DNA of 64,000 bases from Fimbriimonadaceae bacterium. Its GTDB lineage: Bacteria; Armatimonadota; UBA10988. A program made the position numbers and the translations under genes. Every line of letters begins with the position of its first letter. Positions within the stretch are counted from its first letter, which is position 1. Shown piece after piece: positions 41,331 through 49,588 of the stretch. The stretch spans positions 62,001-126,000 of the forward strand of contig JADZEX010000041.1 of assembly GCA_020850355.1 (NCBI GenBank), given 5' to 3'. Under the pieces are notes generated by a model. It was not told the DNA's origin. It was given only the letters and a program-made list of their open reading frames with translations, and did no database searches.

Positions 41331-42281
41331 ATGGAACCTGCCGCCCCTGCTGCCGTCTCGCGAGCCTGGCTGGGCCGCTTCCTGCACGACGCGCAGGGCC
41401 TCAGCGGCCTGCTGCTGGTCGCGGCGCTGCTGCTGGCCGCCCTGCTGGCGCCGTGGCTGACGCCGTTTGATCCCCACCAGCAGTACGAAGCTGGCCTGAC
41501 ACCTGCCGGGATGCCGGCCACGCCCGGCACCGTGATCGACCTCAGCGCCGCGGGCGGCCCGGCCAGCGCGGTGATGCGCCTCGGCGCCGACAACCTCGGC
41601 CGCGACCTGCTGACCCGGTTGCTCTTCGGCGCCCGCATCTCGCTGGCGGTCGGCCTGGCGGCGATGGCCACCGCCATCGGCATCGGCGCCCTGGTCGGCC
41701 TGCTGGCCGGCTACTTCCGCGGCCGCGTCGAACTGCTGCTGATGCGGCTGACCGACATGATGCTGACCATCCCCACCCTGGTCCTGGCGATCGCCCTGGC
41801 CAGCCTCCTGCCGAAGACGCCGCTGCAGCTCGGCGGTGGCCGCGAGTTCCCGCGCGAGATCCTCAACCTGTTCATCGTGATCGGCCTGGTCAACTGGACT
41901 GGCGTGGCGCGGATCATCCGCGGCGAGACGCTGCGGCAGGGCAGCATGGAGTACGTCGAGGCGGCCCGGGCACTGGGCTGCGGGCACGGCCGGATCCTCT
42001 TCCGGCATGTCTTGCCCAACGTCCTGCCAACCATCGTCGTGCTCGGCAGTCTGACCACCGCCAACACGATTCTGCTCGACGCCGGCCTGAGCTACCTCGG
42101 CATCGGCACACCGCCGCCCTACCCTTCCTGGGGCGCCATGATCAACGACGGGCAGCCCTACCTGCTGACGGCGAAGTGGCTGATCCTTGGGCCCGGCCTC
42201 TGCGCGATGGCGGCCGTGCTGGGCTTCAACCTGCTCGGCCAGGGACTGCAGAACGCCCTCGACCCGTGGCGGCGGGGGTGA
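41331..42281 (+). CDS. DppC/OppC-type ABC transporter permease (orphan)
   Basis: Inner-membrane permease of 316 residues with six hydrophobic helices. The family's EAA loop is VEAARALGCGHGRILFRHVLPN, read here only as a landmark, at about 203-224 (A-A-A-G-type pattern with G in the middle), and helix 1 is LLLVAALLLAALLAPWL at 26-42. It is typical of the second permease of dipeptide/nickel importers. No DppB partner, ATPase or binding protein gene is nearby, which is odd since these are normally operonic. Upstream it is divergent to a lipoprotein gene; downstream the DUF4258 gene overlaps its stop (TGATG). The ribosome site is poor, so another start is possible. Confidence 0.9.
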   Translation: MEPAAPAAVSRAWLGRFLHDAQGLSGLLLVAALLLAALLAPWLTPFDPHQQYEAGLTPAGMPATPGTVIDLSAAGGPASAVMRLGADNLGRDLLTRLLFGARISLAVGLAAMATAIGIGALVGLLAGYFRGRVELLLMRLTDMMLTIPTLVLAIALASLLPKTPLQLGGGREFPREILNLFIVIGLVNWTGVARIIRGETLRQGSMEYVEAARALGCGHGRILFRHVLPNVLPTIVVLGSLTTANTILLDAGLSYLGIGTPPPYPSWGAMINDGQPYLLTAKWLILGPGLCAMAAVLGFNLLGQGLQNALDPWRRG

Positions 42282-42562
42282 TGGGAATGAACGACTCGCC
42301 GAGTCCAGCGTTCGTCGTCTCCGATCACGCCAGACTGGCCATGCGGGAGCGTGGGATCCATATTGATCAGGTCGCGGAGGTGTTCCGCAACCCCGACGCG
42401 GTCATGCCAGCGCCGCACGGCCGTCAAGTGTGGCAGGGTCGCTGCCTGCACCACGGTCGGCTGCTGCTGTTGCGCATCGTGGTCGGGCCACGAACGGAAC
42501 CGCCGACCATCATCACCGTCTACATGACGAGCCAGTTCGAGCGCTATGAGAGAAGCCCATGA
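42281..42562 (+). CDS. DUF4258-domain protein
   Basis: Small protein of 93 residues. FVVSDHARLAMRERGIHIDQ and VWQGRCLHHGRLLLLRIV fit the DUF4258 fold, which is related to RelE/BrnT-like toxins. It ends in IITVYMTSQFERY. ATG 42281 overlaps the permease stop; ATG 42287 is the alternative. The next gene overlaps it by 4 bp. It may be the toxin-like half of a DUF4258/DUF2283 pair. No RNase active site can be named with certainty. Confidence 0.8.
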   Translation: MGMNDSPSPAFVVSDHARLAMRERGIHIDQVAEVFRNPDAVMPAPHGRQVWQGRCLHHGRLLLLRIVVGPRTEPPTIITVYMTSQFERYERSP

Positions 42563-43975: not shown

Positions 43976-44689
43976 TCAGGGCGCCGGAGTCAGCCCTTCG
44001 TCGCGGATCGCGAAGAGGTCTTCCTCGTAATGGCTGGTGTTCAGGAAGAGCCCGCCGATCCACAGCACCGGTGCGCCATGGAACTCCGGCTGGGCGGCCG
44101 CCAGGAGCCGTTGGACCTGGTCGCGGATGTCGTCGTAGAGCCGCTCGGTCGCGGTCACGACGGGCTCCGCTGCCGACAACAGGGCGCGCGTCTGACGCTG
44201 CATCAGCAGGTCCAACTCGGCGGCCTGGAAGTCGAGGCTGGGGTCGGGGCCGGCGTGCCGCTCGCCGCTGGCGGCTTCACGCTGCAGCCGCTGCACCGTC
44301 GCCACCAGCGCGCCGCAGCAGGCCCCGGGCTGCGACTGATGGACCCGCTGCACCCGGCCGGGCTGGCCATCGGGCCCGAAGCCCAGGTGCGGACCGAAGA
44401 GCACCACCGCCGCGCCGCGCTCGGGCACGTGGTGAGCGTAGGCGCCCATGCCGGTGATGCCGGTGAACGGCAGTCCGGCCAGGCCGCCGAGCAGGAAGGG
44501 TCCCGGCAGTACCCCTGCGGCGAACCGCCGCCAGGCCCAGTTGATCTCGTCTGGGCAGGCACAAACCGCCAGCAGCGCGCGGTCGGGCGGCACGCCCACC
44601 TCGCCGAGGCGGGTCACGATGTGCTGCAACAACTCGCTCCGCGTCAAGGCGCCGGGGAACCGCTGCTTCGCGAACTCATGGCTGGTCAC
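43976..44689 (-). CDS. LCIB/C-type carbonic anhydrase-family protein
   Basis: Protein of 237 residues resembling the limiting-CO2-inducible B/C beta-type carbonic anhydrases. The zinc-site pattern is complete: C43 and C45 with D47 in VCACPDEIN, H86-H87 in AYAHHVPE, and C124-C125 in ACCGALVA; GGLAGLPFTGITGMGAY and GPHLGFGPDG are family signatures. Members interconvert CO2 and bicarbonate in algae, but many bacterial homologues are untested. GTG 44689 was chosen because GAGG lies 6 bases upstream; ATG 44713 is the longer alternative. It overlaps the end of the membrane P-loop gene by 14 bp, so the two are likely translated together. Activity is inferred, not proved. Confidence 0.8.
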   Translation of the reverse strand: MTSHEFAKQRFPGALTRSELLQHIVTRLGEVGVPPDRALLAVCACPDEINWAWRRFAAGVLPGPFLLGGLAGLPFTGITGMGAYAHHVPERGAAVVLFGPHLGFGPDGQPGRVQRVHQSQPGACCGALVATVQRLQREAASGERHAGPDPSLDFQAAELDLLMQRQTRALLSAAEPVVTATERLYDDIRDQVQRLLAAAQPEFHGAPVLWIGGLFLNTSHYEEDLFAIRDEGLTPAP

Positions 44690-45815
44690 GACCGTCCTCA
44701 CTGACCGCTGCATTCGCTGCCGTGACGGGCCCCCCTGCTGCGGTGTCGGACGTCTGCCGGAGGCGGATGCCGGTCACCTCATCCGGACGGTTTGGCGCGT
44801 CGGGCGAGTTGAACTCCGCCTCGCCGACCACCCAGACCACCCGCTGGGCCGCGCTCTGGCCAACGGCCTGGAGCAACTCTGCCGGCGGCGGCCAGTGCGC
44901 CACGTCATCCACCACCAGCAAGTCGACCCGGTCCCATTGCCAGAGGATCCGCCCGTCGTCGAACTCCTGCTGCCCGCTGGTCAGCCACTGCGCCGCGGTC
45001 ATCGTGCGGGCTGCGCCAGCCGCCAGCTCGAGCAGCTTGCCGGCGGTCAGGTAGCGCGCCGCACCGAGCTTGAACGCAAACTCCGTGGCGATGCCGCAGG
45101 CCAGGCTGGTGCGGCCACTGCCCCGCGGGCCGCTCAAGACCAGGTGCTGCCGGACCGCGCCGGCCTGGTCCGGATCGGCGAACCGCCGGACGGTGCAGAC
45201 GGCGCCGTTGACACACCCTCCCGAGCAGAGCTGCAGGTGCGACGGAAAGCTGCTGAGTCGGTACAGGAACGGGAGCCCGGCCTGTTGGAAGCAGATCTTC
45301 TGCTGCAGCCAACGGTAGGCCATCACCAGGCTGGCCAGCACCAGGAAGATGGCGGTTGGCGCCACCGACAGGCGGGTGCTGCCGAGCAGTAGCACGGCCC
45401 AGATCGCGCCCACCACGATGTAGAACCAGGCCACCACGATGTTCCACCAGAGCAGTGGCCAGTCGATCTCGAACTGCCCGGCGGACTCGGCCTTCTTGGC
45501 CTTCTCGCGCTGGAAGTCGCCCCACTCCTTGGCCGCGAACGCCGCCACCACCAGCAGACAGGCCAGCTTCAGCAGCAGCCCGGACGGGCGCGCGCCGTCG
45601 CCGAGCCCGACCGCTGGTCGCGCGACCAGCCAGTCGAGGCTGCGCCACAAGACCACGGTCAACACGAAACCCAGGCCGAGGTGCCCCCATTGGTCTGCCA
45701 CCCAGGTGTAGCTGACCGTTGGATTCGACTGGACGTCTTTGCCGAACAGATCCAGGTAGACCTGCTTCGCGATCTCGTAAGGCCCAGGTTTGGGCAGCCG
45801 GCGGTCGATTGCCAT
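44676..45815 (-). CDS. Membrane protein fused to an IstB/DnaC-like P-loop domain
   Basis: Protein of 379 residues. Four transmembrane helices are near 46-65, 80-96, 121-145 and 151-170. After a Cys-rich linker (CSGGCVNGAVC, 197-207), the C-terminal half resembles IstB/DnaC AAA+ ATPases: GPRGSGRTS at 229-237 in place of Walker A (the Lys is R235), LLVVDD at 299-304 as Walker B and LTAGKLLELA. The Arg substitution may weaken ATP hydrolysis. ATG at 45815 has AGGGGG 6 bases upstream. It lies between a Gfo/Idh gene (37 bp upstream) and the LCIB-like gene, which overlaps it. I know of no described protein with this layout. Its role is unknown. Confidence 0.75.
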   Translation of the reverse strand: MAIDRRLPKPGPYEIAKQVYLDLFGKDVQSNPTVSYTWVADQWGHLGLGFVLTVVLWRSLDWLVARPAVGLGDGARPSGLLLKLACLLVVAAFAAKEWGDFQREKAKKAESAGQFEIDWPLLWWNIVVAWFYIVVGAIWAVLLLGSTRLSVAPTAIFLVLASLVMAYRWLQQKICFQQAGLPFLYRLSSFPSHLQLCSGGCVNGAVCTVRRFADPDQAGAVRQHLVLSGPRGSGRTSLACGIATEFAFKLGAARYLTAGKLLELAAGAARTMTAAQWLTSGQQEFDDGRILWQWDRVDLLVVDDVAHWPPPAELLQAVGQSAAQRVVWVVGEAEFNSPDAPNRPDEVTGIRLRQTSDTAAGGPVTAANAAVSEDGRDQP

Positions 45816-45852: not shown

Positions 45853-46869
45853 CTACGGCTCGCAGTACTGATCCAACCCGCACCCTCGCAGATCGGCCAC
45901 GACGCCTTGCTCCTCGGCTTCGTAGAGCCGCCAAATCACCTTCAGGCCCTGCACGCTCTCGGGCCCGTTGGTGAGCGGGATCGCGCCGGTTTCCAGGCAG
46001 TCCAGGAAGTGCGCCATCTCGTTTTCGGTGTGCTTGCCGACCTCGGCGTCGTAGATCTTCTGCTCCTCGCCGCCGACGATCCGGTAGATCGCCCCCTCGG
46101 TGATCCGGGCGTCCAGCAGGCCGCCGGTGCAGTGGGCGTGAAAGCTGTACTTCAGCCGCGTGCCCTTGGCGCCCCAGGTGCCGAAGTGGTAGCCCAGCGC
46201 GCCGCTTTCGAACTCCAGACTGACGTTGCTGGTGCCCTCGCGCTCCATCCAAGGGGTGCCGTAGTTGGTGCCCAGGTGGGTGCCGCGGACCGGGCGGCCG
46301 AGGTACCACAACAGCAAGTCGATGTAGTGGCAACCGTGGCTGAAGAGCTGCCCGCCACCCAAGGTCCGGGCGCTGGAGGCCCAGTGGTCGGGCGGGACCT
46401 GGGTGTGCTGCTCGGTCCAGATGCTGACCTGGAAGACCTCGCCCAGCTCCTGGGCGTCGAGCAGTTGCTTCATCCTGACGACCAGCGGGTGGAAGCGCAT
46501 GCAGTAGGCGACCATCAGCGTGCGCTGCGCGGCCTGCGCCGCGGCGATCAACTCGCGGCATTCGGCTTCGCTGTTGGCCAGCGGCTTCTCGACCAGCACA
46601 TGCTTGCCGGCCGCGAGGCAGTCCAGGGCGACCGGGTGGTGCAGGTGATGCGGCAGCACCAGCAGCGCGGCATCGACATCGGCCAGCACCTCGCGGTAGT
46701 CGGTCGCCGGCTGCGCGCCGGGCAGCACCTCGGCCGCGGCGCGGGCCTTGGCGAGGTCGACATCGACCGCCGCGACCACCTCCAGGCGGTCGGCGAGGTT
46801 GAAGAAGCGGCCGGCATGGGCGCGGGACATGCCGCCGCAGCCGATCAACGCGAGCCTGGTCCGAGCCAT
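45853..46869 (-). CDS. Gfo/Idh/MocA-family NAD(P)-dependent oxidoreductase
   Basis: Sugar or inositol dehydrogenase-like enzyme of 338 residues. The Rossmann motif is LIGCGGMSRAHAG at 8-20, the family EKP triad is E94-K95-P96, and the later GCHYIDLLLW holds the substrate-side His and Asp. It oxidises or reduces a sugar or cyclitol hydroxyl with NAD(P). ATG at 46869 has GGAG 6 bases upstream; longer frames upstream are shadows of the divergent SorC gene. It is first in the operon with the membrane P-loop and LCIB-like genes and is probably under SorC control. Confidence 0.94.
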   Translation of the reverse strand: MARTRLALIGCGGMSRAHAGRFFNLADRLEVVAAVDVDLAKARAAAEVLPGAQPATDYREVLADVDAALLVLPHHLHHPVALDCLAAGKHVLVEKPLANSEAECRELIAAAQAAQRTLMVAYCMRFHPLVVRMKQLLDAQELGEVFQVSIWTEQHTQVPPDHWASSARTLGGGQLFSHGCHYIDLLLWYLGRPVRGTHLGTNYGTPWMEREGTSNVSLEFESGALGYHFGTWGAKGTRLKYSFHAHCTGGLLDARITEGAIYRIVGGEEQKIYDAEVGKHTENEMAHFLDCLETGAIPLTNGPESVQGLKVIWRLYEAEEQGVVADLRGCGLDQYCEP

Positions 46870-48093: not shown

Positions 48094-48459
48094 ATGGCCA
48101 CAGACAGTTCGCAACCGTTACGCGTGGAAGTGGAAGCCGTCGACGGCGTGCGCATCGTGCGGCCCAGTGGCGAGGTCGACATCGCCTCGGTGGTCGTGCT
48201 GCAAGAGGCTCTCAATCGCCTGCTCGACGACGGCGCCACCCGGCTGGTGGTCAACCTTGAAGGGCTCGACTACCTCGACAGCACCGGCATCGGCTGCGTC
48301 ACCGCGGCCCGCCGCCGGGCCCGTGACCTGGGCGGCGATGTGGTGCTGGTCTGCACCCGCGAGCGGGTCCTGCGGCTGTTCAAGATCACCGGCCTGGACC
48401 AGGTCTTCAGCATCTGCGCCAGCGGGACCGAGGCGCTTGCCAAGTTGAAGGGGAACTAG
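48094..48459 (+). CDS. STAS-domain anti-anti-sigma factor (RsbV/SpoIIAA type)
   Basis: Anti-sigma antagonist of 121 residues. The STAS fold shows VEAVDGVRIVRPSGEVDIAS and the phosphorylation site S63 in YLDSTGIG. In the classic scheme it binds the anti-sigma factor when unphosphorylated and frees the sigma factor. ATG at 48094 has GAGG 7 bases upstream. It is followed directly by the anti-sigma gene and then the sigma gene, the usual partner-switching order. The site S63 is intact, although the neighbouring kinase looks degenerate. Confidence 0.94.
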   Translation: MATDSSQPLRVEVEAVDGVRIVRPSGEVDIASVVVLQEALNRLLDDGATRLVVNLEGLDYLDSTGIGCVTAARRRARDLGGDVVLVCTRERVLRLFKITGLDQVFSICASGTEALAKLKGN

Positions 48460-48831
48460 GTGGCTGCCGACCAGTTGACCCTCACCCTCCCGGCGCGGCC
48501 GGAGTTCGTCAGCCTGGCGCGCCTGACCCTGGCGGGTCTCGCCGCGCGGCTCGACTACGATGTCGACGCCGTCGAGGACATCCGCGTGGCTGTCGCCGAG
48601 GCGGTCGGGCTGCTGCTCCGCGAGGGCGGCGCCGACACGGTGGTGGTCAGCGCCCAGTGGAGCCGCGACCAGCTCGCCGTCACGGTCTCGCGGGCGGGAC
48701 ACCTGTTGGCGCGGGAGGCCGAAGAGACTGGGGTCGCCTTGCTGGTGATGGAGGCGATGGTCGACTCCGCGGTCTGCGAGACCACCACCGCCGGCAGCGT
48801 CGTGCGGCTGACCAAACAGCAGGCGCTGTGA
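48460..48831 (+). CDS. Anti-sigma factor-like protein (RsbW/SpoIIAB position), degenerate ATP site
   Basis: Protein of 123 residues with the size and position of an RsbW/SpoIIAB-type kinase. The N-box should read EAxxNA but here is E47-A-V-G-L51-L, so the Mg-binding Asn is replaced by Leu. The G1 loop DxGxG is also missing: the equivalent region reads VSRAGHLLAREAEETG. VALLVMEAMVD is like the later G2 helix of the fold. It may bind the sigma factor without phosphorylating the STAS partner. GTG 48460 follows the STAS stop directly, with AAGGGGA upstream. It lies 13 bp before the sigma gene. Confidence 0.82.
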   Translation: MAADQLTLTLPARPEFVSLARLTLAGLAARLDYDVDAVEDIRVAVAEAVGLLLREGGADTVVVSAQWSRDQLAVTVSRAGHLLAREAEETGVALLVMEAMVDSAVCETTTAGSVVRLTKQQAL

Positions 48832-48844
48832 TGGGGACGGCGCG

Positions 48845-49588
48845 GTGAGCAACCCCGAGCGGCTCGACGCTCTCACCAGCCGGTTCCGCGAGCTCCGGCG
48901 CACCGGCGACCGGGGGCTGCGCGAGCAGTTGATTCAGGCCCACCTGCCGCTGGTCCGCGCCCTGGCGCGCCGTTTCGCCAACCGCGGCGAGCCCGTCGAA
49001 GACCTCATCAGCACCGGTACCGTGGCGCTGATCAACGCCGTCGACCGCTTCGACCCCGAGAAGGGCACGCGCTTCAGCACCTTCGCCACGCCGACTATTC
49101 TGGGCGAGCTGAAGCGCTACTTCCGGGACAAGTCTTGGGCGATGAAGGTCCCGCGCCGGATGCAGGAGCTCAACCGCGCCGCGAACCACGCTCGCGAGCA
49201 GTTGGTGCAGCGGCTCGGGCGCAGTCCCAGCTACCTCGAGATCGCCAGCGAGCTGGGCTGCGACGAGGAGCAGGTGATCGAGGCGATGGAGAGCGGCCGG
49301 GGCTACGACCTGGTTTCGTTCGAGGGCCTCGGCCCAACCGATGACGGCCCGACCCACGATGGGCCGGGCGAGGAAGACGAGCACCTGCTCAACGTGGTGC
49401 GTCGCGTCGAGGTGGCGCAGGCCATGGAATCGATCCTCGACGAGCGCGAACGGCGGATCATCGCAGCATACTACTTCGATGAGATGTCGCAGACCGACAT
49501 CGCGACCCGCGAGGGCATCTCGCAGATGCATGTCTCGCGGTTGCTGGGCCGGGCCAAGAGCAAGCTGCGGCGCTATTTGCAGAGCTGA
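48845..49588 (+). CDS. Alternative sigma factor of the SigB/SigF/SigG group
   Basis: Sigma-70 family factor of 247 residues. Region 2 includes HLPLVRALARRFANRGEP and DRFDPEKGTRFSTFATPTI with core-binding and -10-recognition helices. Region 3 begins VPRRMQELNRAANHAREQL, and the C-terminal region 4 helix-turn-helix is MSQTDIATREGISQMHVSRL. It fits stress or differentiation sigma factors controlled by partner switching. GTG 48845 has GGGGA 7 bases upstream. The next gene, AI-2E, starts 2 bases after its stop. Confidence 0.94.
   Translation: MSNPERLDALTSRFRELRRTGDRGLREQLIQAHLPLVRALARRFANRGEPVEDLISTGTVALINAVDRFDPEKGTRFSTFATPTILGELKRYFRDKSWAMKVPRRMQELNRAANHAREQLVQRLGRSPSYLEIASELGCDEEQVIEAMESGRGYDLVSFEGLGPTDDGPTHDGPGEEDEHLLNVVRRVEVAQAMESILDERERRIIAAYYFDEMSQTDIATREGISQMHVSRLLGRAKSKLRRYLQS

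Follow-up and report, generated by a model that had tools for sequence, protein, structure and literature searches.

RESULTS

Overlapping genes for an LCIB homolog and a membrane P-loop protein

The window, i.e., the whole 64,000-nucleotide stretch of DNA analyzed here, has a GC content of 71% and carries on its minus strand two adjoining genes, whose products we call P0001 and P0002. P0001, a 245-amino-acid homolog of LCIB-family carbonic anhydrases recognized by its PF18599 match, fold match, and active-site columns, is encoded at 43976..44713 (-), and P0002, an orphan membrane P-loop protein of 379 amino acids recognized by hydropathy, motifs, and coding-like GC3, at 44676..45815 (-). From the ATG start of P0001 at 44713 to the stop of P0002 at 44676, the two frames share 38 bp (44676..44713, -); an alternative GTG start of P0001 at codon 9 (44689), with GAGGA in front, would reduce the overlap to 14 bp. 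Both frames lie exactly where the first-pass annotation had placed them, and with an overlap of either length, the co-translation that it considered likely is plausible. The P0002 ATG at 45815 has an AGGGGG ribosome-binding site upstream. In-frame GC composition by codon position is coding-like for P0001 (0.76/0.50/0.90) and P0002 (0.69/0.49/0.88), and less so for the plus-strand ORFs overlapping them. Upstream on the same strand, a Gfo/Idh/MocA oxidoreductase gene (45853..46869, -; PF01408, E 2.4e-25) ends 37 bp before the P0002 start, which makes a three-gene transcript plausible and the oxidoreductase gene a possible first member of a transcription unit with P0002 and P0001.

Two other parts of the window deserve mention. 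Translations inspected at 48094-49588 (+) read as anti-sigma-factor-antagonist-like, RsbW-like, and sigma-B/F-like genes in a row, a probable partner-switching regulator of stress or development. At 42176-42562 (+), a DUF4258 protein (E 4e-8) is encoded directly behind an ABC-transporter permease-like gene.

P0001 is a divergent bacterial member of the LCIB family

A search with the LCIB profile bore out the earlier call of an LCIB-type carbonic anhydrase homolog: P0001 matches PF18599 with an E value of 1.2e-39 and 136 bits (curated cut-off, 25), covering positions 1-212 of the 223 in the profile. Its sequence matches in the PDB are LCIB-family structures (E 1e-30 to 1e-7) plus two others that are insignificant. 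The structure model, built from a two-sequence alignment holding one homolog, is modest (pLDDT 53, pTM 0.60); its best fold match is PtLCIB4 (E 8e-13, TM 0.64), and all significant Foldseek matches are LCIBs. The zinc pattern previously read from the sequence (C-C-D, H-H, C-C) is common to PtLCIB4, where C46, D48, H88, H102, and C125/C126, numbered by reference to the PDB mutants S47R and H88A, align with C53, D55, H95, H109, and C132/C133 of P0001. These putative zinc and active-site positions, whose roles we presume from PDB entry names, are kept in almost all bacterial relatives in an alignment with 32 homologs. P0001 is thus a true LCIB-family carbonic anhydrase homolog, soundly placed as a new bacterial member of this known family.

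The sole unusual feature of the active-site alignment is Pro54, which adjoins the conserved Asp and replaces Ser47 of PtLCIB4. In a tree of 45 LCIBs, the branch leading to P0001 is very long, at 2.13 changes per site, and these two traits together mean that the activity of the protein is not assured. The LCIB of another genome of the same family (G002; L005:1411-2139, +) has Arg at the Ser47 position, matching the engineered S47R entry in the PDB, and may be catalytically altered to judge from this residue. The long branch, the Ser-to-Pro change beside the conserved Asp, and the arginine of the G002 protein would all suit a catalytically weak or dead P0001 serving as the CO2/bicarbonate sensor subunit of P0002; with the putative zinc and catalytic positions of P0001 all intact, we regard this as very improbable.

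P0002 combines four predicted transmembrane helices with a degenerate P-loop core

Hydropathy, motifs, and the helices of a low-confidence model agree with the earlier description of P0002 as four transmembrane helices joined to a P-loop domain. The predicted helices span residues about 46-64, 77-95, 124-144, and 149-170, and a linker with four cysteines (C175, C197, C201, and C207) leads to a P-loop core at about residues 222-350. Basic stretches occur at the N terminus, in the middle loop, and in the linker after the fourth helix, which, with the even number of helices, is consistent with a cytosolic P-loop. The single-sequence model (pLDDT 48) is usable for the four helices only and too poor for a fold search.

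Within the core, the Walker A motif GPRGSGRT (residues 229-236; 45108..45131, -) carries Arg235 in place of the lysine, just as the first-pass annotation had it, and a Walker B motif, LLVVDD, follows at residues 299-304. The label "IstB/DnaC-like" fared less well. Local resemblance is indeed best to IstB, over residues 222-309, and it stays far under the family cut-offs: NCBIfam IstB NF038214 scores 27 bits (E 3e-6) where 200 are required, and Pfam IstB PF01695 scores 15-17 bits (E 0.014) where 24 are. Since RecA, Hda, RuvB, and AAA profiles also match the same stretch weakly, we keep the label as a weak best guess from sequence. Past the P-loop helix, at residues 255-322 (window 44850-45053, -), the core passes through an IstB-like stretch to Walker B.

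The core appears to end shortly past Walker B without a lid, i.e., as a truncated ASCE core. Arg235 and the apparent absence of an AAA+ lid suggest nucleotide binding or sensing rather than vigorous ATPase activity. The AAA+ protein Hda of Escherichia coli naturally has Arg in place of the Walker A Lys. Hda functions in its ADP-bound form (PMC5742627). By this analogy, a Walker A arginine need not imply a dead site.

Two other origins or roles of P0002 were considered. For a derivation of the transmembrane part from DUF2279 (YfiM-like), the likeness comes down to a D..GH motif: profile comparisons fell short of significance (hmmsearch E 0.02-0.06 against a single target; hhalign probability 1.2%), and of 30 true DUF2279 members just one showed the D..GH...KE..D pattern that had suggested it, so we set it aside. 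A role in anti-phage defense was rejected, having behind it only a local P-loop match to IetA (E 3e-4).

Bacterial LCIB genes adjoin transport genes at several loci

Of 345 Bacteroidota genomes sampled, 34 carried an LCIB gene, as did 14 of the 299 genomes of one order; gene neighborhoods were surveyed in the 1.5-kb flanks of 45 LCIB loci. Four of these loci (L039, L042, L049, and L053) have SbtA (PF05982) and an SbtB-like P-II gene beside LCIB. Eight others, from Bacteroidota and one genome of the host phylum, have a gene for a bestrophin-like channel (PF25539; L004, L026, L028, L082, L083, L085, L086, and L087). The SbtA and SbtB-like genes are divergent from LCIB and belong to one clade of Bacteroidota LCIBs, and some of the bestrophin-like loci also carry an ion-channel (PF07885) or TMEM175 gene. 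Most of the surveyed loci lack a dedicated membrane partner within 1.5 kb.

Bestrophin-like proteins are essential for the CO2-concentrating mechanism of Chlamydomonas (PMC6708349). LCIB and bestrophin look like a recurrent bacterial unit that recalls the algal CO2-concentrating parts list; within our incomplete coverage of the literature, we found no description of such bacterial pairs. That bacterial LCIBs adjoin bicarbonate or anion transport genes supports a role in inorganic-carbon handling, and that they often do so makes a role at the membrane plausible.

SbtB is a nucleotide-binding regulator of SbtA. The existence of such a regulator, the positional analogy to the bestrophin-LCIB and SbtAB-LCIB loci, and the four transmembrane helices of P0002 could all be taken to mean that P0002 is an inorganic-carbon or proton conductor gated by its P-loop core and standing in the place of bestrophin or SbtA beside LCIB. 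Against this, phmmer detected no similarity of P0002 to the bestrophins or SbtAs among the LCIB-neighbor ORFs, Pfam assigned it to no transporter family, and its transmembrane part is short and shows no obvious pore features, so we hold a conducting P0002 to be unlikely.

The P0001-P0002 pair is seen in one genome only

The genomes sampled were those of the host phylum and Bacteroidota. No full-length relative of P0002 came up elsewhere in the host genome, in 291 genomes of the host phylum, in 36 LCIB-bearing genomes, or in plasmid, phage, and viral collections; the searches returned local resemblances only, which mostly involved the P-loop in frames the size of RecA. LCIB, too, is rare in the host phylum (3/291 genomes), and a P0001 search of the genome contigs led to a single locus. 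The same-family genome G002 has an LCIB without P0002. There, an orthologue of the Gfo/Idh/MocA gene, 76% identical and truncated by the end of its contig, precedes the gene of an unrelated DUF2723-like protein with seven transmembrane segments, an assignment made by reading its sequence, and the LCIB, 35% identical to P0001, is located elsewhere beside other genes. Vertical inheritance of the LCIB shared with G002 was rejected on this disparity between 35% and the 76% of the Gfo neighbor; the tree leaves both LCIBs as unresolved long branches. In the genomes available, the P0001-P0002 pair thus occurs in this lineage alone, as a single-genome observation, and our search of the literature, incomplete in coverage, found no description of an LCIB paired with a membrane P-loop protein.

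Conserved gene order, to which the first-pass annotation had looked for support, is thus lacking in relatives, and as P0002 has no orthologue, conserved linkage is unusable as evidence for a partnership. That annotation had named two findings that would jointly speak against it, a missing LCIB match and missing gene order; the match exists, and the gene order is indeed missing. Its suggestion of a membrane-localized inorganic-carbon module is supported as regards inorganic carbon, through the SbtA/SbtB and bestrophin-like loci, and not as regards a recurrent P0001-P0002 module.

These data also bear on the main competing explanation, in which P0001 acts alone as a spare soluble carbonic anhydrase and P0002, an orphan of this lineage, has nothing but the transcript in common with it. 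Insertion or chance assembly would then have placed the two-gene block behind the Gfo/Idh gene. The rarity of dedicated membrane partners across the surveyed loci and the arrangement in G002, with a different membrane protein behind the Gfo orthologue and LCIB elsewhere, both fit such a view, as does the fact that gene overlaps are common in GC-rich bacteria. On the other hand, overlapping co-directional genes act together more often than not, and the P0002 gene appears maintained, judging by its codon-position composition. We consider that the two proteins may well have no partnership, a possibility ranking just under, and almost equally likely as, the membrane anchoring or regulation of P0001 by P0002 discussed below.

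DISCUSSION

The host bacterium seems heterotroph-like. Its genome encodes one classical beta-carbonic anhydrase (PF00484), and no RuBisCO was detected in this 95%-complete genome, which together argue against an autotrophic CO2-concentrating mechanism in the host. Two roles of P0001 were accordingly set aside, that of sole carbonic anhydrase of the host, as the PF00484 enzyme is also encoded, and that of a component of a CO2-concentrating mechanism serving RuBisCO. Because RuBisCO was not detected, bicarbonate supply for anaplerotic reactions or pH balance is more likely than carbon fixation as the role of P0001.

The locus displays directly an LCIB-family member with retained active-site residues, encoded in overlap with a protein that has transmembrane segments and a P-loop motif with arginine. 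Our tentative preference, which we put slightly short of probable, is that P0002 anchors or regulates the cytosolic P0001 carbonic anhydrase at the inner membrane face. P0002, made from the upstream, translationally coupled gene, would have its N and C termini, and hence its P-loop core, facing the cytosol, where it would anchor or regulate P0001, the soluble zinc LCIB-type (beta-fold) carbonic anhydrase made from the downstream gene. There, P0001 would interconvert CO2 and bicarbonate while inorganic carbon crosses the membrane, to supply carboxylases that need bicarbonate, or to control pH, in a heterotroph. In this scheme, we infer the catalysis by P0001, its interaction with P0002, the topology, and the regulation. 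In its favor we count the LCIB membership with intact catalytic columns, the overlap of the genes within a compact unit that has ribosome-binding sites, the transporters adjoining other bacterial LCIBs, the helix number and basic stretches that fit a cytosolic P-loop, the failure to detect RuBisCO, and the precedent of Hda. Restriction to a single genome, the long branch and Pro54 of P0001, the pLDDT of 48 for P0002, and the second, classical beta-carbonic anhydrase count against anchoring or regulation by P0002. That the pair would make up a membrane-tethered, nucleotide-sensing LCIB complex of a heterotroph, in which a degenerate P-loop protein with four transmembrane helices replaces bestrophin or SbtA, has in our estimation a small chance of being right. 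Coupling of P0001 and P0002 is suggestive, from one unreplicated genome with P0002 an orphan in the collections searched, and their partnership is a guess.

LCIB proteins are known chiefly from algal CO2-concentrating mechanisms. P0001 shares with PtLCIB4, CrLCIB, and CrLCIC (PF18599) whole-length homology and the same Cys-Asp/His/His/Cys positions; in the fold alignment, P0001 is about 28-31% identical to PtLCIB4 and 6kfs. It differs from these proteins in being bacterial, in its very divergent branch, and in the proline at the Ser47 position, and, unlike the algal genes, its gene adjoins that of an unrelated membrane protein and has no chloroplast or RuBisCO context. P0002 resembles IstB/DnaC P-loop ATPases in its Walker A/B region and local IstB-like stretch, and departs from them in its score (27 bits versus 200), Arg235 for Lys, four fused transmembrane helices, and the lack of a recognizable lid. 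The likeness to DabA-DabB (DAB2/MpsAB) is one of concept, a beta-carbonic anhydrase-like enzyme tied to a membrane subunit, and an analogy only (PMC13144422); in Pfam and NCBIfam scans, neither P0001 nor P0002 matched the DabA or DabB families.

The closest parallel in arrangement lies in the Bacteroidota loci, where a gene for a membrane protein, bestrophin-like or SbtA with SbtB, likewise adjoins LCIB; P0002 itself has no sequence relationship to bestrophin or SbtA, and no counterpart of it turned up in the other genomes and collections searched. The repeated placement of bacterial LCIB genes beside bicarbonate or anion transporters points to a nonphotosynthetic role in inorganic-carbon handling. 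If P0002 proves to be the partner of P0001, the locus described here would add to these arrangements a further way to couple an LCIB enzyme to the membrane.
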